From Methylobacter sp. (GTDB lineage Bacteria; Pseudomonadota; Gammaproteobacteria; Methylococcales; Methylomonadaceae), in NCBI GenBank assembly GCA_030684815.1, contig JAUXXQ010000140.1, positions 1 to 64,000 on the forward strand: DNA of 64,000 nt, in the 5' to 3' direction. The notes below the pieces were generated by a model that made no database searches, was not told the DNA's origin, and saw only the letters and a program-made list of their open reading frames with translations. The stretch's first letter is position 1, and each line of letters begins with the position of its first letter. The position numbers were made by a program, and so were the translations under genes. This document shows, one piece after another, positions 40,413 to 51,837 of this stretch.

Positions 40413-40421
40413 GCGTTGAAC

Positions 40422-40892
40422 ATGTTGCATATTGTTTTATACGAGCCTGAAATTCCCGCTAACACCGGGAATATCATCCGCTTATGTGCAAATGCAGGGA
40501 TGCACTTGCATCTGATCAAGCCCTTGGGTTTTGATTTGGATGACAAGAAATTGCGCCGGGCAGGGCTGGATTATCATGAATGGGTAGCGGTCAAAGAGCA
40601 TGACTCATTGGCCGATTTTACCAGCAGCATTAAGCCGGGGCGGCTATTTGCCCTGAGTACCAAAGGCAGGAAGCTTTACAGTGAGGTGAGTTTTCAGTCT
40701 GGGGATGCGTTGCTGTTCGGCCCCGAAACGCGAGGCTTGCCTGCGGAGGTGTTGGCTGAGTTAGGTGCTGAACAGTGCGTGTATTTGCCGATGCAGGCCG
40801 CCAGCCGCAGCCTGAACTTGTCCAATACCGTGGCTATCGTTTTGTACGAGGCATGGCGGCAGTTGGATTTTTCGGGGGCGGTGATTAAATAA
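40422..40892 (+). CDS. trmL: tRNA (cytidine(34)-2'-O)-methyltransferase
   Basis: Methylates the ribose of wobble C or cmnm5U in leucine tRNAs. A 156-residue SPOUT enzyme: [20 protein letters not shown] at the N-terminus (NTGN and Arg), [16 protein letters not shown], the knot strand [11 protein letters not shown] and [19 protein letters not shown] with the conserved Arg-Ser-Leu-Asn-Leu-Ser. The ATG at 40422 gives the classic start [12 protein letters not shown]. It lies nine bases after glgP and ends just before the island boundary. Confidence 0.93.
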
Positions 40893-40904
40893 TCATTTGT
40901 GGTA

Positions 40905-40926
40905 GGAAATAGAACGCGGATGACAC
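40905..40926. repeat. Solo end fragment of the family A repeat at the island edge
   Basis: GAAATAGAACGCGGATGACAC matches the subterminal left part of the family A elements (for example gaaatagaactcggatggcac at 19927). Nothing further of the element is present; the sequence turns directly into the broken excisionase-like gene. Confidence 0.6.
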
Positions 40927-41101
40927 GATTCTCACCATTAAAGAAGTAGCTGCCTACCTCAAGATAAACGAGCGAACAGTTTATAGACTAGCCGCAAGCG
41001 GCGATATTCCTGCGTTTAAGGTAGGTGGTTCTTGGCGCTTCCGCAAAGACACTTTGGAACAGTGAATTGAGCAACAATCAAATCAACGGACAGGCGGATA
41101 G
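40913..41101 (+). pseudogene. Excisionase-like helix-turn-helix protein, start lost and nonsense stop
   Basis: The frame reads TILTIKEVAAYLKINERTVYR, then LAASGDIPAFKVGGSWRFRKD, a textbook MerR/excisionase-type helix-turn-helix of about 55 residues. Two defects: no start codon lies between the in-frame TAG at 40910-40912 and the domain, where a repeat fragment abuts; and TGA at 41063-41065 interrupts the tail, after which the same frame continues IEQQSNQRTGG to TAG at 41099-41101. Homologues usually have Trp at such a TLEQWIE position, so TGG to TGA is likely. The final TAG overlaps the GTG start of the helicase gene by one base (TAGTG), so this was once the first gene of the operon. Probably dead or rudimentary. 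Confidence 0.75.
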
Positions 41102-43737
41102 TGATAACCGATTACCACGCAAAATACTATGCTTACGAGCTAACCCGTCAATGTGCTGGCGGTGATGTTGATAGACTCTCGCAATCGTTATTTGATGCGA
41201 CTGTTGATCTTAACCCGCATCAAATCAACGCGGCATTATTCGCGCTTAATAATCCGTTAAACAAAGGCGTTATTCTTGCTGACGAAGTCGGTTTAGGTAA
41301 AACCATTGAAGCCGGTTTAGTGCTCTGTCAGTACTGGGCAGAACGCAAACGCAATTTGCTGATTATCTGTCCTGCTTCTTTGCGTAAACAATGGGCGCAA
41401 GAGTTGCGCGACAAATTCAATCTGCCTTCGCAAATTCTGGATGCCAACACCTGGCGGCAGTTAAAGAAACAAGGTGTCTACAATCCGTTCAACAATCATT
41501 GCATCAACATTCTGTCTTATCACTTTGCGGCGCGATTAGAAGAATCGTTAGTGATTGAACCTTGGCATCTTGTGGTCATGGATGAAGCGCATAAATTGCG
41601 CAACGCCTATCGTCCCAATAACAAAATGGGGCAAGCGTTAAAACGGGCCTTGTATGGACGTCAAAAATTACTGCTCACGGCAACACCATTACAAAATTCG
41701 CTGTTAGAGCTTTACGGCCTAACAGCATTGTTAGAACGTGAAGACAGTTACGCCTTACCGAAACGTCAACGTCATTTGACAGGACTAATACTGCGCAAAC
41801 TGTTAGCGTCCAGTACCCACGCGGTTCACAACACACTGATTACCATCAACCGCCGTTTGGAAGCGTTAAAAGCAGATCAAGCAGACGACACCGACATTGT
41901 TGCGGAGTTGATTGAAAACGATGATTTGGAAACGGATTATCTGGAAGAGCTGGATACCGACATCATTGACGATACCGAACAGGTCATCGACAAAGAGCAG
42001 CTGAATCAGGAAATCGTTGAACTGACGCTATTGATTGAACAAGCCGAAAAAATCAGCGACGACAGTAAAGCCAAAGCCTTACTCATTGCCTTAAACCAAG
42101 GCTTTGAACAAATGGCGGCAATGGGTGCGCCACGTAAAGCCGTCATCTTTACAGAATCAAAGCGCACTCAGGAATATTTACAACGCTATCTAGCTGCCAA
42201 TCATTACGACGGCCAGTTAGTCACCTTTAGCGGTACAAACAACAGTCCCGAAACCACACTGATCTATCAGCAATGGCTAGCGGAATATCAAGGCACCGAC
42301 AAAATTACCGGTTCACCGCAAATAGATAGAAGAACCGCGCTGATTGACCACTTCCAACAGCATGCGGAAATCATGATTGCCACTGAAGCCGGTGCGGAAG
42401 GTGTCAACCTGCAATTCTGTTCGTTACTCATCAACTACGACTTACCTTGGAATCCGCAACGGGTTGAACAGCGCATTGGCCGTTGCCATCGTTACGGGCA
42501 AAAATTTGATGTCGTCGTTATCAACTTTCTCAATCAAAGCAACTATGCCGATCAACGCGTACTGGAACTATTAACCGATAAATTCCATTTGTTTGATGGT
42601 GTGTTTGGTGCATCCGATGATGTCTTAGGCTCTATTGAATCGGGAATAGATTTTGAAAAACGCATACAAGCGATTTATGAAACCTGTCGCAGTACCGAAC
42701 AAATAGAAGCCGCTTTTGCCACGCTGCAAAAAGAAATGGAAGTGGACATCAGCAAGCAGATGCAAGAAACCCGGCAACAACTGCTGGAAAACTTTGATGA
42801 AGACATTCACGACCTGCTAAAACTTCAGCTGGATCAAGCAGAACAACGCTTGGATAAAATCAGTCGCTGGTTCTGGGCTGTCACGCAACACCAACTCAAA
42901 TCCTACGCGCAGTTTGACGAACAACAGCACCGCTTTCAGCTTCAGCACAATGTCATTAACGAAGCACCGCTAGGCGTCTATCAACTCATTGCACGTAGTC
43001 AAAAACAAAATCCTGCTAGCGTCAATGCGCATGTCTACCGGCTTAACCATCCACTCGGTGAATGGGTTTTGGAGACAGCAAAAAATAAAGTAACACCTTC
43101 AGCACACATTACTTTTGACTATACCGCGCATGGTGCCAAAGTCAGCGTCATTGAATCCTTATTAGGTAAATCGGGTGTATTGAAGCTACAGCTTTTTAGC
43201 ATTGAGGCATTGGATCGTAGCGAAGATCATCTGTTGTTTGCCGCAGTAACCGAAAACGGGCAAATACTGCCTGCTGAGACGGCACAAAAAATAATGCAAT
43301 TACCAGCGTCGGATTGCAAGCCAAGCATCGTCAGCGACAATCAGTAGATTGAGCAATCACTGTCCAATGCGCAAAACGACATCATCAAGTTGGTCAACAA
43401 CCGTAATTTGACGTTCTTTGAAGAAGAAGTCAGCAAACTGGATCACTGGGCGGATGATTTGAAGTTTGGACTCGAGCAAAGTATTAAAGATACCGATCAG
43501 CAAATCAAGGATGTCCGACGTAACGCTAAGATAGCGCCAACGTTGGAAGAAAAATTAGCACTCCAGAAGCAACAGCATGAGTTAGAGCGCACGCGCAATA
43601 AACAGCGTAAAGAGTTATTTGATCGTCAAGATGAAATAGACGAACGGCGGGAGACGTTGATTGGACAGTTAGAAAGCAAGCTCAATCAAAGCACTGCTAT
43701 TGAAGATTTGTTTATTGTTCATTGGAGCCTGAAATAG
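41101..43737 (+). pseudogene. SNF2-family helicase split by an in-frame amber codon
   Basis: The first part (GTG 41101 to TAG 43345-43347) encodes 748 residues of an SF2/SNF2 ATPase: LNPHQINAALFAL, Walker A ADEVGLGKTIEAGLV, Walker B VVMDEAHKLRN, LLTATPLQN, and motif VI PQRVEQRIGRCHRYGQ. The same frame then stays open past the TAG for another 129 codons to 43737, giving a coiled-coil tail (EEEVSKLDHWADDLKFGLEQ, LEEKLALQKQQHELERTRNK) with no ATG near its start. Helicases of this type with site-specific methyltransferase and Res neighbours normally carry that tail in one chain, so a CAG-to-TAG change is likely. The product lacks its last part, or needs read-through. SNF2-like helicases occur in several restriction and DISARM-like systems. 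Confidence 0.8.
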
Positions 43738-43797
43738 TGCGAATATTAAAGGCAATATTAGATCAGCTTCCATTAAGTTTTATAGGCATATATAAAA

Positions 43798-45201
43798 ATG
43801 ACAAAGATTACATTTGAAAATTTAGGGGCGATAGAATTCGGGGAAATAGAAATTTCTCAACTTACTGTGATATGCGGGGAAAATAATACAGGCAAGACCT
43901 ATGTTACTTACCTTGTTTATTGTCTGCTAAAAACCTGGAAGCATTTTGTAGATATTAACCTCAATGGAATACTGCGAGAGTTACATAAAAAAGGTGTCGC
44001 AAAAATTGACCTGCAAGAAAATGTAGCAAGCTCTTGGCAGGAAATTTGTGCTCAAGCGCTTGTAAAGTTTGAGGAGCAATTCCCGGAAATGTTGGCATCA
44101 AATAGCAATTTATTCAGCAAGCTTAAGCTGAGTGTTGACATTCCCTTAGGTACGCAATGGAAAACAAAAAGCTACAAAGATGAATTGCGCAGTAGTACTG
44201 GTAATCTTTTAATAACAATAAATAAACTAGAAAATTCAAGTATTGTAGAGTTTGCTGCCCCTGAGTCAGAATCTTTGGTTTCTCATGCGTTTGGTGATTT
44301 TATTGAAGATAAATTATTAGAGTTAATGCTTCATGAGAGCATACCTAATGTGTTTATTGGGAGCACGGAGCGAACAGGAGCGACCATATTTAGGAAGCAG
44401 TTAAATCTTGCTACCAGTAATCTTGTTGACTTATTAAGCCAAGTTCACAAACAAGGAGCTGATAGCTTAACCCCTCATCAGCTATTTGAAACAGTCTATG
44501 GTAAAAGAGATTACGCGCTAGCGGTAAAACATAATGTTGACTTTATAAATCAGTTGCCGAATACAAGCGCAGAAGAAGGGGAGCTATTAAAGTCATCACC
44601 TAATTTACTTGATATATTTGAAAGAATCGTTGGCGGAACTTATGTAACGAATAATGAAGGTGTTACTCAATTCAAACCTAGAGGTTCAAATCTAAAGCTT
44701 GGTTTGGGAGAAGCTTCTAGCTCCGTTCGTTCACTTCTAATTGTTTGGTATTGGCTAAAGTTTTTTGCAAAGAAAGGCGACATGTTAATGCTAGATGAGC
44801 CGGAATTAAATTTACATCCTTCTAATCAACGGAGATTAGCTAGGTTTATTGCTGCTTTAATTAAAGAAGGTGTTAAGGTTTTTCTTACGACGCACAGTGA
44901 TTATATAATCAAAGAATTTAATACTTTGATTATGCTAAATCAAGACTCTCCGAAAATAGCAGGAATTCTTGATAAACTTAAAGATTACACTTCCGAAGAT
45001 AAGCTTGATGCAAGTTGTGTTGCGGTTTATATGGCAAAAGAAGAATATATTTTGCGTCCAGGTGGAAAAAGAAAAACTAAGGCACGGACACTGGTTAAAG
45101 CTGAAATTAGCAAAACACTGGGAATTGAAGCAATAAGTTTTGATGAAACCATAGATGATATGAATTCTGTGCAGGAGGCTATCTATTATGGCCTTAACTA
45201 A
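43798..45201 (+). CDS. ABC/AAA-type ATPase of a putative defence pair
   Basis: A 467-residue ATPase with an SMC/OLD-like split cassette. Walker A is CGENNTGKTYVTY (about 26-38); a helical middle of 250 residues follows; signature-like LGLGEASSSVRSL; Walker B DMLMLDEPELNLHPSNQ with catalytic Glu; and H-loop FLTTHSDYII. No nuclease or TOPRIM domain was seen in the C-terminal 100 residues. ATPases of this build drive nucleases in Septu, PARIS and Gabija systems. The partner starts inside its last codons (14-base overlap). The DNA is noticeably AT-richer than in neighbouring genes, suggesting a separate origin. It sits 60 bases after the helicase reading frame, with no clear ribosome site. Confidence 0.78.
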   Translation: MTKITFENLGAIEFGEIEISQLTVICGENNTGKTYVTYLVYCLLKTWKHFVDINLNGILRELHKKGVAKIDLQENVASSWQEICAQALVKFEEQFPEMLASNSNLFSKLKLSVDIPLGTQWKTKSYKDELRSSTGNLLITINKLENSSIVEFAAPESESLVSHAFGDFIEDKLLELMLHESIPNVFIGSTERTGATIFRKQLNLATSNLVDLLSQVHKQGADSLTPHQLFETVYGKRDYALAVKHNVDFINQLPNTSAEEGELLKSSPNLLDIFERIVGGTYVTNNEGVTQFKPRGSNLKLGLGEASSSVRSLLIVWYWLKFFAKKGDMLMLDEPELNLHPSNQRRLARFIAALIKEGVKVFLTTHSDYIIKEFNTLIMLNQDSPKIAGILDKLKDYTSEDKLDASCVAVYMAKEEYILRPGGKRKTKARTLVKAEISKTLGIEAISFDETIDDMNSVQEAIYYGLN

Positions 45202-45766
45202 TGGATTAGATGCAATTAAAGCACTAACGAGTTGTTTGCAAGCGGATGGTTCTCAAGTATCGCATGTTATTCTTGAGGAAAAAGACCCAAAGGCAAAGTT
45301 AAAAAAATTAACAATTTCTGATCTGGATTCAAATGTTGTAGTACTAGCCACTGACGAAGGAAGGAAGCGTAATCAAGTAGCTTGTATGTCACCTTTATTT
45401 TCTGATGATGGTAAGTATGATCAAAATAGGGCCTGTGATGCAGTTTTCATCCGAAAGTCAGACGATGGCTATCAAGTTTGCTATGTTGATTTAAAATCAG
45501 ATTCTCCTTCTGGATTTGAAGGTCAATTCAAAAGCACCCAATGTTTTATTGGTTATGTTTGTGCTTTATCTGACAAATTATGCCAACAACCATTAAAGAT
45601 TATTCGTGAGCGATATGTTGTATTTCATACTGACTCAAGCGATGCAAAGCGATATGGAACAAAAACTAGAACTCGTTTCAGCCCTAATGATGCTAATTCG
45701 CCTTCCTCACCTAAAAAGTTTTGCGTTAAAAATGGCGATAGTGTGCGATTTTCGGAATTTTTCTAA
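45188..45766 (+). CDS. PD-(D/E)XK-like nuclease candidate, partner of the ATPase
   Basis: A 192-residue protein of no family I can name. In the middle, RACDAVFIRK and, 11 residues on, VCYVDLKSD form a D...DxK pattern, followed by FKSTQCFIGYV with a helix-borne Lys and Gln; this is the layout of a PD-(D/E)XK nuclease core. The C-terminal 40 residues are basic and Ser/Asn-rich (KRYGTKTRTRFSPND). No HNH or TOPRIM motif is present, which separates it from PtuB and AriB. It overlaps the ATPase gene by 14 bases and the Mod gene by one base (TAATG). An ATPase-regulated nuclease is the simplest reading, but the fold assignment rests on motif spacing only. Confidence 0.5.
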   Translation: MALTNGLDAIKALTSCLQADGSQVSHVILEEKDPKAKLKKLTISDLDSNVVVLATDEGRKRNQVACMSPLFSDDGKYDQNRACDAVFIRKSDDGYQVCYVDLKSDSPSGFEGQFKSTQCFIGYVCALSDKLCQQPLKIIRERYVVFHTDSSDAKRYGTKTRTRFSPNDANSPSSPKKFCVKNGDSVRFSEFF

Positions 45767-47433
45767 TGAGTAAAACTAAACTGGAATTAACCTGGATTGG
45801 CAAGGATAAAAGGCCGAAGCTGGAGCCGCGCATATTATTAGAAGACCCGAGTTTGTCGTATCACGCTAAACATCGCGTCAGTGATAACGATCAGTTTGAT
45901 AATAAGTTGATATTTGGCGATAACCTATTGGCGTTAAAAGCCCTAGAACAGGAATATAGAGGCAAGGTGAAATGTGTCTTTATTGACCCGCCTTATAATA
46001 CCGGTAGCGCCTTTACCCATTATGACGATGGTTTGGAGCATTCCATTTGGTTGTCGTTGATGCGGGATCGTTTGGAGATTATCCGTGAGTTATTGGCGGA
46101 TGATGGTTCGCTGTGGATCACGATTGACGATAATGAAGCCCATTATTTGAAAGTGATGTGTGATGAAATTTTTGGAAGAGCAAATTTCATTGCGAATGTG
46201 ATTTGGCAAAAAAAATTCTCCCCCCAAAATGACGCGAAGTGGATTAGCAATAGCCACGACCACATTCTCTGCTACGCGATTAATAAATCATCCTGGTTTC
46301 CCAATCAATTGCCAAGATCCCAAACTATGGATGATCGCTATAAAAATCCTGATAACGATCCAAAGGGGTCTTGGGCGTCAACTGATATTACTCGTGCGGA
46401 GCACAGGGATAGGGACTATTGGGGGCTAATTACCCCATCAGGAAAAGAAGTGTTTCCTGCAAAAGGAAGAAGTTGGAGTAGGCCGAAAGAGAATATTGAG
46501 AAGTTAAAGGAGCAAGGGCTCTTGTGGTTCGGCCCGAATGGAGATCGCATGCCTCGCCTAAAGAAATATCTAACGGAAATGGATGGCGGATTAACACCTC
46601 AAACCCTTTGGTTTCATGATGAGGTTGGAAACAATCAAGAAGCGAAGCGAGAAATCCTAAAACTAGATTTTGATTCGGTTTTTGATACACCGAAGCCAGA
46701 GCGCCTTCTTTTCCGTGTTTTGCATTTAGCTACCAATCCCGGAGATATTGTCCTAGATTCGTTTGCTGGTTCAGGAACTACTGGAGCAGTTGCTCACAAA
46801 ATGGGGCGTCGCTGGATTATGATTGAACTGGGCGATCATTGCCAAACCCATATCATCCCACGCCTGCAAAAAGTCATAGACGGCGAAGATCAGGGCGGTA
46901 TAAGCAAAGCCGTCAACTGGCAAGGCGGCGGCGGATTTCGTTATTACTCCTTGGCGTCGTCTTTAATGGAACAAGATCGTTGGGGTAACTGGGTGGTGAA
47001 TAAAAATTACAATCCAGCGATGTTGGCTGAAGCCTTATGTAAGCTGGAAGGTTTTACTTATGCGCCGTCTGATTTGCAATGGTGGAATCATGGCTATTCG
47101 TCTGAACAGGATTTTATCTACGTCACCACGCAAAACTTGTCACATCAACAGCTGGAAGAGCTGTCCTTAGAAGTGGGCGGTGATCGCTCCTTGTTAGTCT
47201 GCTGTGCAGCGTTTCGCGGTAAAGTGGATCAGTTTGCTAACCTGACCTTAAAGAAAATTCCCAAGATGGTGTTATCGCGCTGTGAATGGGCGCATGACGA
47301 CTACAGCTTGAATGTGGCGAATTTGCCGCTGGCGGAACCTGAACCTAGTGCTGAACGTCAAGCAAGACCAAGCAAAGCCAGTGCTAGGCAGGTGAATCAT
47401 GCACAAGGTGATCTATTTGGTACAGACGAATGA
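45766..47433 (+). CDS. Type III-like site-specific DNA methyltransferase (Mod)
   Basis: A 555-residue N6-adenine methyltransferase of the beta class. Motif IV CVFIDPPYNTGSAF (near 69) precedes motif I LDSFAGSGTTGAV (near 329), as in Mod subunits; LWITIDDNEAHYLK is the conserved post-IV strand. Between them, residues about 130-310 are the target recognition region, with codon use unlike the two ends, suggesting recent exchange. The C-terminal 150 residues form an accessory region ending in a basic tail. It methylates the recognition sequence and gives Res its specificity. It overlaps its neighbours on both sides (TAATG and ATGA). Res is not adjacent: a zeta-like pair intervenes. Confidence 0.9.
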   Translation: MSKTKLELTWIGKDKRPKLEPRILLEDPSLSYHAKHRVSDNDQFDNKLIFGDNLLALKALEQEYRGKVKCVFIDPPYNTGSAFTHYDDGLEHSIWLSLMRDRLEIIRELLADDGSLWITIDDNEAHYLKVMCDEIFGRANFIANVIWQKKFSPQNDAKWISNSHDHILCYAINKSSWFPNQLPRSQTMDDRYKNPDNDPKGSWASTDITRAEHRDRDYWGLITPSGKEVFPAKGRSWSRPKENIEKLKEQGLLWFGPNGDRMPRLKKYLTEMDGGLTPQTLWFHDEVGNNQEAKREILKLDFDSVFDTPKPERLLFRVLHLATNPGDIVLDSFAGSGTTGAVAHKMGRRWIMIELGDHCQTHIIPRLQKVIDGEDQGGISKAVNWQGGGGFRYYSLASSLMEQDRWGNWVVNKNYNPAMLAEALCKLEGFTYAPSDLQWWNHGYSSEQDFIYVTTQNLSHQQLEELSLEVGGDRSLLVCCAAFRGKVDQFANLTLKKIPKMVLSRCEWAHDDYSLNVANLPLAEPEPSAERQARPSKASARQVNHAQGDLFGTDE

Positions 47434-47948
47434 ATCAAAGAATCCTTATTATTGCGGGACCCAATGGCGCAGGAAAAACGACTTTTGCCCGCGCTTTTTT
47501 ACCGCAGGAAGCGCAATGTCAGCGTTTTATTAATGCGGATTTAATCGCTGCGGGGTTATCACCTTTTGCACCGGAAATTATGGCGATCAAAGCGGGTCGC
47601 TTGATGCTGAAAGAAATTGCAGATTGCGTAATGCATCAACATTCATTTGCCTTTGAAACTACTTTATCTGGATTGGCCTATTTACGGCATATCCAATATT
47701 GGCAAGAACAGGGTTATCAAGTGAGTTTGTATTTTTTGAGCTTGCCTAACGTTGAGGTGGCTATTGAACGAGTTGCCTTTAGAGTGCAACAAGGTGGGCA
47801 TCATATTCCTGAAGTAGTTATTCGGCGTCGATTTACTGCGGGGCTGAATAATTTTGCAAAATACTATCGGCCTATGGTTAACGATTGGGCACTATATGAC
47901 AACGCCGGTGAAGAGCCAGTTTTAAAGGAATGGGGAGAAAATACATGA
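47430..47948 (+). CDS. Zeta-toxin-like P-loop kinase
   Basis: A 172-residue protein. Walker A IIAGPNGAGKTTFARAF lies at about 7-23; FINADLIAAGLSP holds the Asp that binds substrate; SFAFETTLSGLAYL is the FETT motif of zeta-like kinases; FRVQQGGHHIPEVVIRRRF is the lid with Arg residues. Zeta toxins phosphorylate UDP-activated amino sugars and block wall synthesis; the short bacterial homologues are often called just AAA or zeta family proteins, and their toxicity is not always proven. It starts inside the Mod stop (ATGA) and its stop overlaps the 61-residue partner, a toxin-first pair. Its place between mod and res is unusual. Confidence 0.82.
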   Translation: MNQRILIIAGPNGAGKTTFARAFLPQEAQCQRFINADLIAAGLSPFAPEIMAIKAGRLMLKEIADCVMHQHSFAFETTLSGLAYLRHIQYWQEQGYQVSLYFLSLPNVEVAIERVAFRVQQGGHHIPEVVIRRRFTAGLNNFAKYYRPMVNDWALYDNAGEEPVLKEWGENT

Positions 47949-48130
47949 ATGCATCCGAATTGGAAAAGGCTAAAAATCCAGACTTGATTGCGTCTGTTAT
48001 AGCGATGAAACGTGCTGCTGAGTTGGCAAGACAAACCGCCATTGCAACTAATACCGGAATTGTGATTGTTAAGGATGGCAAGTTGTGCAGGGTGTCTGCT
48101 GAAGAATTGAAGTTGCGGGTTAATCCATGA
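47945..48130 (+). CDS. Small partner of the zeta-like kinase, possible antitoxin
   Basis: A 61-residue protein. Its first 40 residues are helical and start MNASELEKAKNPDLIASVIA, then AMKRAAELARQTAIATNTG, followed by a short beta pair IVIVKDGKLCRVSAEEL. Small proteins with an AMKRAA..LARQ..A helix followed by IV..DG.. are frequent partners of short zeta-like kinases. Start at 47945 overlaps the kinase stop by four bases; its own stop overlaps the Res start by four (ATGA). Antitoxin function is inferred from position and size. Confidence 0.65.
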   Translation: MNASELEKAKNPDLIASVIAMKRAAELARQTAIATNTGIVIVKDGKLCRVSAEELKLRVNP

Positions 48131-50811
48131 GTCAGAAAGTCTTACAAACCGTGTCTGGACGCTTGAGCTTACGCGCGCCGCAACGGGAATCATTGGAAGC
48201 GTTACAACAAGCGATTGCTGCGACACCGGACATATTGCATCCGAAACGGGATACTGTGGCCATACTGGACATTCTAAAATCTGAATTTCCAAAACTTTCG
48301 GATTTTGAACGCGAGTTTCCATCATTGTGTTTTGCTTTGGCAACCGGTGTGGGTAAAACCCGCTTGATGGGTGCTTTCATCAGCTATTTGCATCTGGCGC
48401 ATGACATCAGCAATTTTTTTGTTTTAGCGCCCAATTTAACCATCTACAACAAGCTAATCGCGGACTTTACACCTAATACACCCAAGTATGTGTTTAAAGG
48501 CATTGCGGAGTTTGCGGTTAATTCACCGAAAATCATTACTGGCGACGACTATGAAGTGAAAGGTCGTGCGCTGGATGTCTTTGCGTCTATTTCCATCAAC
48601 ATTTTTAACATTTCCAAAATCAATTCAGAGGTGCGTGGTGGTAAAGCCCCTCGCATCAAACGCTTATCCGAATATTTAGGTGATAGCTATTTCAATTATT
48701 TGGCGCAGTTGCCGGATTTAGTGCTGTTGATGGATGAGTCGCATCGTTACCGTGCTGATGCGGGTGTACGTGCGTTGAATGAATTAAAGCCGTTATTGGG
48801 TTTGGAACTGACTGCAACGCCGTTTACCGAATCCAACAAAGGGCCAGTACCGTTTAAAAATGTGGTTGTTGACTATCCGTTAGCGCGAGCGATGGACGAT
48901 GGTTTTGTTAAAGAGCCTGCTGTAGTTACGCAACGCAACTTTGATCCTTCGCAGCATTCCGCAGCGGATATTGAGCGTATCAAACTGATGGACGGTATTC
49001 GTTTGCATGAAGCGACTAAAGTTGAACTGCTGACTTATGCGCACGAAAATGATTTGGCAGTGGTTAAGCCGTTTATGTTAGTGATTGCCAGAGACACGAC
49101 ACACGCAGCGCAATTGTTAGAGTTGATGGAATCGTTGGCGTTTTTTGATGGCCGCTATCAAGGCAAAATTATTCAGGTGGATAGCAGTAAATCCGGTGCG
49201 GCTGAGGAGGAAATGATTTCCAGGTTATTGGCGGTAGAAAGTCATGACGAACCGACTGAAATTGTTATCCACGTCAACATGCTTAAAGAAGGTTGGGACG
49301 TTACCAACTTGTATACGATAGTGCCGTTACGTGCCGCTAATGCCAGAACTTTGATAGAGCAATCTATCGGCCGTGGCCTTCGTTTACCGTATGGTAAGCG
49401 TACCGGTGTTGCTGCGGTAGATAGATTGAATATCGTTGCGCACGATCGATTTCAGCAGATTGTGGATGAAGCGAATAATCCGGAAAATCCTTTGCGTTTG
49501 AAACAAGTGATACTGGATGCGCCTTCATCGGATGACAAAACTGAAAGCGTGTCTGTCAGTTCTAATCTGGACAACTTGATCAGCGGTAAACAGCAAAGCC
49601 TTACTTATCCATCAACTGAAAATAAATCACCTGTATTCAACGGCATTGCCGAACAAACTGTTGCACAATTTGCTATTGCTGAATTAAACAAGCTGCAACA
49701 CGCGCCTCAAACAGTGGCGACTAGCAAAGCCTTATTCAAGACGGAAGTGCAGCAATCAGTGATACAGGCGGTAACTGAACAGTTGGCAAGCGGACAACAA
49801 TTGCTGTTTGATTTGGAAAATCCGCTTGATGTCGCTGACATTGTGGCTAAAACGACTGAATTATTGGTGCAGCATACGATAGATATTCCGCGTGTGATCG
49901 TCGTACCGAAAGGCGAAGTCAGTTATGGCTATAAAGCCTTTACGCTGGATTTAAGCGGTTTGAATCTTCAACCATCAGAACGCGACATAATGATTCAGAG
50001 CCTGCAAACCAACGAGCAGGTTTTCATGGTTTCTCAGATTGGTTTAACGGAAGACAGGCCGGAAAACTACATCGTTCATGCGCTGATTGATTATGACGAC
50101 ATAAGCTACGATGACCATGCTGATTTGTTGTACGACTTATCGAGCCAAGTGGTGCAGCATCTCAAAGATAAGACGTTGTCTGATGAAGAAATCAACAATG
50201 TACTAAGCAACCATCGCCCGCTAATTGCCAAAGTCATCTACACGCAAATGGCTGCGCACTTTTGGGAAAAAGCCGATTCCTATGAGGTAGAGGTACGTAG
50301 CGGCTTTACACCGTTAAAGAGTTGCGCGTACACCATTGCAGCCGGACAAGCTGTTAATTCTTATCGCGATACCGTCACCGAGAAAGTAAAAATCAAACAG
50401 ATGCTGTTTGGTGGTTTCAGCAAGTGCCTATATCCCTTACAGAAGTTTGATTCCGATACCGAACGTCGCTTTGCTGTGATCTTAGAGCGCGATGTGCAGA
50501 AGTGGTTTAAGCCTGCAAAAGGTCAATTTAAAATTTACTATCGTGATGGTGTAGAGCATCCTGAATATGTGCCTGACTTTGTTGCTGAAATCAACGATTG
50601 CGTACTAATGGTAGAAACCAAGTCGCAAGCGGAAATGACCGATGCCATCGTACAAGCAAAAGCCGATGCCGCTTCTAAATGGTGTCAAAATGCTAGCGAG
50701 TACTTATTGAAAAACGGCGGTAAACCATGGAAATATTTGTTAATCCCGCATGATGAGGTTAAAGAAAATTTTCAGATTGGGGATTATTTGAAGAAGTTTG
50801 AAAAAACCTGA
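48127..50811 (+). CDS. Type III-like restriction subunit Res, SF2 helicase-nuclease
   Basis: A 894-residue ATP-dependent endonuclease subunit. Helicase motifs: LATGVGKTRLMGAFI (Walker A near 76), LLMDESHRYRAD (DESH box), LELTATPFTES, HVNMLKEGWDVTNLYTIVPL and IEQSIGRGLRLPYGKR (motif VI). A long helical linker precedes the C-terminal nuclease core EYVPDFVAEINDCVLMVETK, a PD...ExK arrangement near 815. It would cut unmodified DNA after translocation when complexed with Mod. Its start overlaps the small partner gene by four bases, so expression of Res depends on translation of the kinase pair. The operon ends here, 28 bases from the gpsA stop. Confidence 0.9.
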   Translation: MSQKVLQTVSGRLSLRAPQRESLEALQQAIAATPDILHPKRDTVAILDILKSEFPKLSDFEREFPSLCFALATGVGKTRLMGAFISYLHLAHDISNFFVLAPNLTIYNKLIADFTPNTPKYVFKGIAEFAVNSPKIITGDDYEVKGRALDVFASISINIFNISKINSEVRGGKAPRIKRLSEYLGDSYFNYLAQLPDLVLLMDESHRYRADAGVRALNELKPLLGLELTATPFTESNKGPVPFKNVVVDYPLARAMDDGFVKEPAVVTQRNFDPSQHSAADIERIKLMDGIRLHEATKVELLTYAHENDLAVVKPFMLVIARDTTHAAQLLELMESLAFFDGRYQGKIIQVDSSKSGAAEEEMISRLLAVESHDEPTEIVIHVNMLKEGWDVTNLYTIVPLRAANARTLIEQSIGRGLRLPYGKRTGVAAVDRLNIVAHDRFQQIVDEANNPENPLRLKQVILDAPSSDDKTESVSVSSNLDNLISGKQQSLTYPSTENKSPVFNGIAEQTVAQFAIAELNKLQHAPQTVATSKALFKTEVQQSVIQAVTEQLASGQQLLFDLENPLDVADIVAKTTELLVQHTIDIPRVIVVPKGEVSYGYKAFTLDLSGLNLQPSERDIMIQSLQTNEQVFMVSQIGLTEDRPENYIVHALIDYDDISYDDHADLLYDLSSQVVQHLKDKTLSDEEINNVLSNHRPLIAKVIYTQMAAHFWEKADSYEVEVRSGFTPLKSCAYTIAAGQAVNSYRDTVTEKVKIKQMLFGGFSKCLYPLQKFDSDTERRFAVILERDVQKWFKPAKGQFKIYYRDGVEHPEYVPDFVAEINDCVLMVETKSQAEMTDAIVQAKADAASKWCQNASEYLLKNGGKPWKYLLIPHDEVKENFQIGDYLKKFEKT

Positions 50812-50838
50812 TTATCACTGTTAATTTATGATTCTAAA

Positions 50839-51837
50839 TTACGACTCCGCTTTTTGTTCCCGCGCCAATAGATTTTGTACAGCGGCTAGCGGGGCCAAGC
50901 CTTCGTATAAAACCTTGTAGGTTTGTTCGGTGATGGGCATGTCTACGCCGTATTTTTTGGCTAATAAAAAGGTTTCTTTAGCGGCGGAAACGCCTTCTAT
51001 TTCTTGGGCGATTTCTGCTGTCGCGATTATCGGGTCTTTGCCTTGTCCTAAGGCTAAACCGAAACGCCGGTTTCTGGACTGGTTGTCGGTACAGGTCAAA
51101 ATAAGGTCGCCCAAACCGGCCAGTCCCATGAAGGTTTCCTGTTTGCCGCCCAGCTTGACACCGAGACGAATCATTTCGTTCAATCCACGCGTAATCAGTG
51201 CGGCACGGGTGTTTGCGCCAAAGCCAAGGCCGTCGGCAATACCGGCGGCTATCGCCATGACATTTTTGACGGCACCGCCGACTTCAACGCCAATCAGGTC
51301 GGGGTTGGTGTAAGTCCGAAAACGTGCGCTGTGCAGGATGTCGGCTAAGAGGTTGGCAAAATTCGGCTGGAATGAGGCGATGGTGATGGCGGTCGGCAGT
51401 TCTGCCGCGACTTCTCTGGCAAAGCTGGGCCCTGAAAGCAAGGCGGCCGGGGTTTCTGCGGAAAAAATATCGGCAACCACTTCATGCAGCAAGGAGCCGT
51501 TATCGGGATTAAAGCCTTTGGTTGCCCAAGCTATTTGTACGTCATCGGACAAATACGGTTTGAGCTGGAGCAAGGTGTCCTTAAATGCGTGGCTGGGTAC
51601 GGAAACTAAGATCAGCTTACAAAAGCGGCCAATCTCGGTTAAGTCGGAAGTTACCGTCAGCAGTTCGGGGAAGGTGGGGCCGGGCAAATAGCGTTTGTTT
51701 TCCCGGTCTTGCGCCAGCGCGGCGATATGTTGCGGATTATGTCCCCATAACAGCGTCTGGCAGCCATTTCTGGCCGCCAGAATTGCCAGCGCTGTCCCCC
51801 AAGAACCTGCGCCCAGGACGGCGATTTTTTTATTCAT
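50839..51837 (-). CDS. gpsA: Glycerol-3-phosphate dehydrogenase [NAD(P)+]
   Basis: Supplies sn-glycerol 3-phosphate for phospholipid synthesis by reducing dihydroxyacetone phosphate. The 332-residue product has the cofactor loop VLGAGSWGTALA (about 5-16), KGFNPDNGSLLHEV, LSGPSFAREVA, catalytic Lys in VGGAVKNVMAIAAG and the AALITRGLNEM segment. Normal length. It is the last gene of the row ArsR, rhodanese, secB, gpsA, a conserved gammaproteobacterial order. It converges with the island operon, whose end lies 28 bases away. Confidence 0.94.
   Translation of the reverse strand: MNKKIAVLGAGSWGTALAILAARNGCQTLLWGHNPQHIAALAQDRENKRYLPGPTFPELLTVTSDLTEIGRFCKLILVSVPSHAFKDTLLQLKPYLSDDVQIAWATKGFNPDNGSLLHEVVADIFSAETPAALLSGPSFAREVAAELPTAITIASFQPNFANLLADILHSARFRTYTNPDLIGVEVGGAVKNVMAIAAGIADGLGFGANTRAALITRGLNEMIRLGVKLGGKQETFMGLAGLGDLILTCTDNQSRNRRFGLALGQGKDPIIATAEIAQEIEGVSAAKETFLLAKKYGVDMPITEQTYKVLYEGLAPLAAVQNLLAREQKAES

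Follow-up and report, generated by a model that had tools for sequence, protein, structure and literature searches.

In a 64,000-nucleotide stretch of DNA from Methylobacter sp. (contig JAUXXQ010000140.1, positions 1-64,000; hereafter the window), an insertion between trmL and gpsA carries a type III-like restriction operon, SNF2-Mod-Res, with two fixed cargo positions: slot 1, between the SNF2 helicase and the methyltransferase Mod, and slot 2, between Mod and the restriction subunit Res. In the window, slot 1 holds an ATPase-nuclease pair and slot 2 a zeta-toxin-like kinase with a partner of 61 amino acids (aa). Each position likely receives back-up defences that can be exchanged for one another, and the comparisons below lead us to favor, with some reserve, a role for the two resident pairs as autonomous second-line defences that would come into play if restriction fails. 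All genes of the window operon from the ATPase through Res lie on the + strand. Their order and their overlaps, 14 bases between the ATPase and nuclease genes, then 1 base with Mod and 4 bases each with the zeta-like gene, its partner and Res, had been noted in an original prediction made from the sequence alone and agreed exactly with the coordinates.

Two fixed cargo positions in SNF2-Mod-Res operons

A scan with a Mod alignment gave 80 genome loci, the best 80 of 575 Mod relatives, and the window and four plasmids brought the total to 85 loci. Cargo genes were simple open reading frame (ORF) calls, named after cluster representatives. Four of the 85 loci had no Res match, and a fifth (L055), whose Res match was odd, was left out of the slot-2 count, giving 80 loci for that slot. 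SNF2 was found upstream of Mod in 58/85 loci. Among the 84 loci other than the window, SNF2 lay upstream on the same strand in 57 and Res downstream in 80, a layout beyond chance.

The SNF2-Mod gap measured at least 597 bp in 52 of the 58 loci and less than 100 bp in the other 6, while the Mod-Res gap was at least 319 bp in 34/80 and 181 bp or less in 46/80. When the 55 loci possessing SNF2, Mod and Res were considered together, both slots were loaded in 26, slot 1 only in 23, neither in 6, and slot 2 only in none. The cargo ORFs of at least 100 aa were oriented with Mod in 122 of 127 cases. The last slot-1 gene overlapped Mod or ended within 30 bp of it in 46/52 loci, and the last slot-2 gene overlapped the Res start in 21/32 loci, by 4 bases in 11 of them. 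On a Salmonella plasmid (L011, IncFIB), the order helix-turn-helix (HTH) gene-SNF2-IS256-AbiD-small gene-Mod-Res was observed with a macrolide resistance gene nearby, and this Mod had near-identical matches on more than 10 Salmonella plasmids.

Each slot carries its own cargo families

The commonest slot-1 cargo was AIPR/AbiU (13 loci), followed by an LmuB-like ATPase (7), DUF2130 (6), the HEC-01A ATPase (5), an HTH-M78 peptidase (5), SMC/Ppl-like proteins (4), KilA-N (4, a cluster that includes two short pieces) and AAA_13 (3). YhcG, Septu, IetAS, AlbA_2, BRO and an unnamed 527-aa family were each found in 2 loci, and single occurrences included PD-T4-4, AbiD, Fic and PLD. Slot 2 contained YhcG (9 loci), RhuM (8), zeta (3), PIN (2) and DUF4258/DUF2283 (2), with one each of HEPN-MNT, Fic, an SMC-like protein and a second Mod; the latter is a full gene (L021:11631-13256), possibly a spare specificity. 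Thus AIPR, Septu, IetAS and the OLD-type and SMC-like ATPases (all but one) belonged to slot 1, and RhuM, YhcG (9/11), zeta, PIN and HEPN-MNT to slot 2.

Nineteen named families occurred in at least two loci, for 86 placements; 16 were confined to one slot, leaving 4 minority placements, and none of 10,000 label shuffles was as extreme, in a test that the kinship of the loci inflates. The same held for unnamed sequence clusters (at least 100 aa), 18/20 of which were confined to one slot (0/10,000 shuffles). AbiU/AIPR, HEC-01A, Septu, IetAS, AbiD or PD-T4-4 were present in 24/52 loaded slot-1 loci, and the PADLOC candidates YhcG (PDC-S02) or RhuM (PDC-S05) in 15/34 loaded slot-2 loci. Unnamed cargo accounted for 2/52 and 8/34 loaded loci, respectively.

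Cargo differs between operons, with borders at gene ends

A Res tree was built from 52 of the 58 SNF2-bearing loci, the remainder having a short or missing Res. The two loci nearest to the window, L016 and L019 (the latter from Methylobacter psychrophilus, with an open SNF2), hold M78 and AIPR, respectively, in slot 1, where the window holds PD-T4-4. Along the tree we counted 36 changes in slot 1, 19 in slot 2 and 11 between a loaded and an empty slot 2, numbers that stand without a shuffle control and are inflated by composite labels. At Res identities of at least 75%, the slot-1 family was the same in 8/29 locus pairs.

The borders of these replacements coincide with gene ends. Compared with L016 or L019, the window lost DNA similarity at the end of SNF2 (43714 and 43735) and regained it at the start of Mod (45766 and 45765). 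Against L165, which carries other slot-2 cargo, similarity was lost where Mod ends (47420) and returned at Res (48126). Across slot 1 and the opening 0.4 kb of Mod, L247 and L016 were 92% identical, against only 72-82% in the flanking DNA on either side, which points to a transferred cassette. Absence or random scattering of the inner genes in homologous operons had been named as what would count against the original prediction; the outcome is mixed, since in these operons the identity of the genes changes and their positions stay.

The PD-T4-4 pair in slot 1

The first slot-1 gene of the window (43798..45201, + strand) encodes an OLD-type ABC ATPase (Pfam AAA_15) and the second (45188..45766, + strand) a PD-(D/E)XK-type nuclease. 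PADLOC analysis, suggested as a check in the original prediction, identified these adjacent genes as PD-T4-4_A (E 8.9e-163) and PD-T4-4_B (E 5.4e-42), so that by match the pair is not new but the known PD-T4-4 phage-defence pair. The P-loop and the DEPELNLHP stretch of the ATPase were invariant in 7 aligned sequences, and the nuclease residues E31, D84, D/E101 and K103 were present in 55/55; we presume the functional roles of these motifs and residues. The predicted nuclease model (predicted local distance difference test score 89) gave weak structural matches, with McrBC and BsmI at the top.

A search with the window ATPase against the other 84 loci gave a match in L048 alone, a betaproteobacterial genome in which a PD-T4-4 pair (35% and 31%) precedes Mod and SNF2 is absent within 10 kb. 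A PD-T4-4 relative (43%) also occupies slot 1 of L165, after an open SNF2. In L162, the pair is found with neither Mod nor Res nearby and is followed by an unfused AlbA_2 gene.

The zeta-like kinase and its partner in slot 2

The first slot-2 gene (47430..47948, + strand) encodes a kinase with a Zeta_toxin domain (36.0 bits for a Pfam cut-off of 22.3) that has at least 8000 relatives. The second (47945..48130, + strand), which overlaps Res by 4 bases, encodes the 61-aa partner, likely an antitoxin; in the test for an epsilon or PezA antitoxin, it matched no Pfam or PADLOC family, and a Foldseek search with its model returned nothing at E 0.001. Zeta matches among the other 84 loci were confined to L019 and L045, and none of these loci combines the ATPase and the zeta gene of the window. 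Besides its PD-T4-4 pair, L048 has a zeta scar in its 92-bp Mod-Res gap (L048:11620-11760), made of the first 18 codons and ending in the P-loop, which suggests that the combination has been present in at least two cases.

The partner adjoins Res in L016, L019, L045, L247 and L250. In three of them it is kept before Res with zeta absent, and is preceded by PIN (L016 and L247) or DUF559 (L250). The L016 partner (L016:12615-12857), with the PIN gene in the place of zeta, has an insertion of about 10 residues after residue 9. In L160 (9274-10494), as in L161, an AlbA_2/HATPase protein encoded immediately ahead of Res carries the partner's first 22 residues as a fusion; these rearranged operons have a truncated Mod and a GmrSD gene upstream of a PD-T4-4 pair.

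Zeta and partner also occur together in L181 with neither Mod nor Res nearby. Zeta-like genes were found in 545 plasmid records. At 4/7 further places inspected, on four plasmids, the zeta-like gene is followed by a small overlapping gene, not established as a homologue of the partner, again with no Mod or Res nearby.

Mod, Res and a broken SNF2

Mod (45766..47433, + strand) is a predicted type III-like adenine methyltransferase (PADLOC MTase_III, E 7.6e-231; Pfam N6_N4_Mtase, PF01555). Res (48127..50811, + strand) is a helicase (PADLOC REase_III, E 1.1e-203; Pfam ResIII, PF04851) with a C-terminal PD-(D/E)XK motif recognized by eye, and it matched the EcoP15I Res structure (4zcf) at E 8.5e-6. 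An N6-adenine Mod and a ResIII-helicase Res in one operon are the hallmarks of type III restriction-modification (RM). Since Res scored 29.1 bits against the NCBIfam type III endonuclease equivalog PRK15483, far below its cut-off of 564, it belongs to a distant branch, hence the term type III-like. All six window genes other than HTH and SNF2 kept their reading frames open, while only 67-69 aa of Mod are left in L160, with a similar truncation in L161.

SNF2 (41101..43347, + strand) heads the operon as originally described, but it is not intact: an amber stop (in-frame TAG, 43345-43347) and a deletion of about 73 codons near 41717 had been overlooked. The deletion measures 219 bp relative to L019 and L165 and 216 bp relative to L016. 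The frame continues after the stop (43348..43740, + strand) into a C-terminal coiled coil that weakly matched the terminal part of DrmD models (E 1.3e-4 and 0.012). The genome of the window has no second close SNF2 match, the next best being at E 3.2e-17. SNF2 is preceded by the remnant of an excisionase-type HTH gene (40913..41100, + strand), in which no usual start codon stands close to the beginning and a TGA interrupts the frame at 41063. An HTH gene of the same kind is open before SNF2 in L011, and just its tail could be recognized by eye in L016 and L165. The stops at 41063 and 43345 lie in similar sequence contexts, probably by coincidence.

Unique nonsynonymous/synonymous changes on the window branch numbered 17/89 for SNF2, 8/44 for Mod and 15/87 for Res, compared with 3/54, 13/53 and 5/64 in three intact SNF2 relatives. 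These counts show no clear relaxation of the window SNF2 relative to its Mod and Res or to the intact relatives, so either SNF2 was broken recently or what is left of it still matters. The layout seems able to do without SNF2, because it is missing upstream in 9/50 loci having 10 kb of upstream sequence, is replaced by a GmrSD gene in L160 and lies in pieces in G099 and in L247.

Insertion site and mobility

Flank matches and the intergenic spacing in relatives delimit the whole insertion (40893..50838, no strand assigned), between trmL (40416-40892) on the left and gpsA (50839-51837) on the right. DNA similarity of the flanks to relatives stopped at 40889-40902 and resumed from 50840, and the trmL-gpsA spacing is only about 100-200 bp in the same-genus genomes G105, G095 and G104.

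A Res of at least 81% identity was present in 5/23 genomes of the genus, and in G094, G097 and G099 the system lies away from the trmL-gpsA site. Between the window and G099, the trmL protein is 97% and the gpsA DNA 96% identical, whereas the Res proteins are 81% identical and located at different sites. By these identities, the system moves independently of the host genes. In G099 (L246, G099:C71), the trmL-gpsA site is occupied by a different 6-kb insert, at the far border of which the gpsA 3′ end is repeated (29 bp), resembling an attachment site.

Probable autonomous back-up modules and alternative roles

In the mechanism we propose, Mod would methylate the host DNA and Res would cut unmodified DNA. 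By analogy with WonAB, the PD-T4-4 ATPase would sense infection and switch on its nuclease, while the zeta kinase would be a toxin held by the 61-aa partner and freed upon loss of this partner. The overlaps probably couple the translation of cargo, Mod and Res; a docked module would then be expressed with the operon without requiring its own promoter. Recombination in the conserved ends of SNF2, Mod and Res would bring in new modules, and autonomous modules would stop phage growth upon restriction failure. The inner pairs would travel with the operon as its back-up. They may also sense directly what state the restriction enzyme is in, but this mechanism does not require it. We prefer autonomous back-up to a wired guard because both pairs are also found in places lacking Mod and Res (L162 for PD-T4-4 and L181 for zeta).

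Several observations weigh against this interpretation. Slot 2 was loaded in 0/6 loci with an empty slot 1 (Fisher p 0.016), a nested loading that would not be expected if the modules were purely independent riders. The counts describe the Mod clade sampled, kinship of the loci inflates both shuffle tests, and the cargo names depend on cluster representatives. No PADLOC defence model matched the zeta pair, which may be just an addiction module, and the breakage of SNF2 and HTH may indicate that the island is on its way out.

As a tentative and rather doubtful generalization, SNF2-Mod-Res might be a docking rack, receiving sensor-effector ATPases in slot 1 and small toxin-type modules in slot 2, swapped via the conserved gene ends; coupling to Mod and Res levels would then mean that the cartridge is released whenever restriction is hit.

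It is unlikely, to our mind, that the cargo is instead wired to the restriction enzymes, watching Mod or Res and killing or arresting the cell upon phage inhibition or operon loss, in the manner of PrrC in EcoprrI. Such guards would fit the position of the modules inside the operon with 4-base overlaps and the loading of slot 2 solely where slot 1 is loaded. A full-length AAA_13 protein in slot 1 of L033 would also be consistent with them, as we take this Pfam family to include PrrC. Unrelated families nevertheless swap at high Res identity, and the same pairs exist with no Mod or Res nearby. The original prediction is therefore retained for the inner pairs as separate modules nested in the operon, one of them a known phage-defence match, and not for their role as guards of restriction; the two-slot rule had escaped it. 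The available part of PMC12707154 reviews PrrC and PARIS as guardians; for the window modules, enzyme wiring as in PrrC is a possible arrangement proposed by analogy.

We consider it improbable that the modules, and especially the zeta pair, mainly stabilize the island against loss by addiction or hitch-hiking, with little role against phages. The abundance of zeta-like genes on plasmids, the toxin-antitoxin families of slot 2 (zeta, PIN, HEPN-MNT and DUF4258/DUF2283) and the mobility of the system would all suit such a function, but nearly half of the loaded slot-1 loci contain named defence families, and loss is tolerated, as illustrated by the zeta scar in L048 and by the partner without zeta in L016, L247 and L250. 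Very improbable, finally, is a recently arrived island already breaking down, with the inner pairs as leftovers: the damage to HTH and SNF2, the fragmented SNF2 of L247, the shortened Mod of L160 and L161, and a window SNF2 ratio above two of the three intact relatives are offset by six other open genes, by about equal ratios in the window Mod and Res and a higher one in the third intact relative, and by the apparent dispensability of SNF2.

Relation to known defence systems

The libraries searched contain no named system with the combined layout, in agreement with the original prediction. Like the window pair, PD-T4-4 and WonAB of Vibrio cholerae consist of an ATPase and a PD-(D/E)XK-type nuclease. 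WonAB is related to PD-T4-4, and abortive infection is reported for it in the accessible text of PMC12137116; from excerpts of PMC12137116 and PMC12839542, such ATPase-nuclease pairs have a back-up role elsewhere. In E. coli, PD-T4-4 was located on an element resembling an integrative and conjugative element (PMC9519451, in part), whereas the window pair lies within a type III-like RM operon and overlaps Mod. PARIS was also considered as an identity for the pair and rejected: the six PADLOC matches of the nuclease are PD-T4-4_B and PDC-M47B rather than the TOPRIM protein AriB, and the AriA model (3.5e-29) matched the ATPase less well than PD-T4-4_A.

Embedded back-up effectors in BREX and BREX-related core loci were published in 2026; as far as the available sections of PMC12839542 go, OLD-ABC ATPase pairs, PIN, HEPN-MNT and Schlafen effectors lie in or beside these modification-based defence operons, as comparable modules do here. 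Their core is a DUF499 ATPase, an N6-methyltransferase and a helicase (PMC12839542, same sections), whereas that of the window operon is SNF2, a type III-like Mod and Res, and no DUF499 ATPase (DUF499/Hma) was found in the Pfam matches of the eight window proteins. SNF2-Mod-Res operons differ further in their two fixed positions with slot-specific cargo.

PrrC, in the EcoprrI type I operon, is likewise a toxin gene nested in an RM operon (passages of PMC12707154). The window operon is, by contrast, type III-like with two slots, and its ATPase belongs to AAA_15, not AAA_13. SNF2 and AIPR in RM operons were reported by Iyer (2008), and AIPR is the commonest slot-1 cargo here; that study is centred on MORC ATPases, and its consulted portion (PMC2292703) describes no two-slot rule. 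SNF2 has a feature in common with DISARM, DrmD_b being its best NCBIfam model, but the curated DrmD cut-off of 950 was reached neither by the broken SNF2 (548.7 bits) nor by five intact relatives (629.5-698.4). SNF2 cross-matched DrmA in PADLOC, as a helicase, and DrmA, DrmB and DrmC were absent from the PADLOC matches listed for the other seven proteins (the best 25 for the ATPase and Mod).

No two-slot SNF2-Mod-Res operon was found in titles and abstracts among the literature matches listed, which is weak evidence of absence, as the search left subscription literature uncovered. These matches likewise contained no zeta gene in SNF2-Mod-Res operons.

The two slots turn a single odd operon into a testable rule, in which two addressable positions predict where new defence genes hide. 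The unnamed cargo provides candidate new anti-phage systems, such as the 527-aa protein of L012, the DUF6119 protein of L017 and the 493-aa protein of L043. Natural cargo swaps between operons whose Res share more than 80% identity offer a natural test of nested toxins as guards or riders. On the Synechocystis plasmid pSYSG (L013), hsdS and a nucleotidyltransferase gene are followed by a zeta-like gene with a small partner, and then by DUF4433 and macro-domain genes; this may be a further RM operon in which toxin modules are nested.

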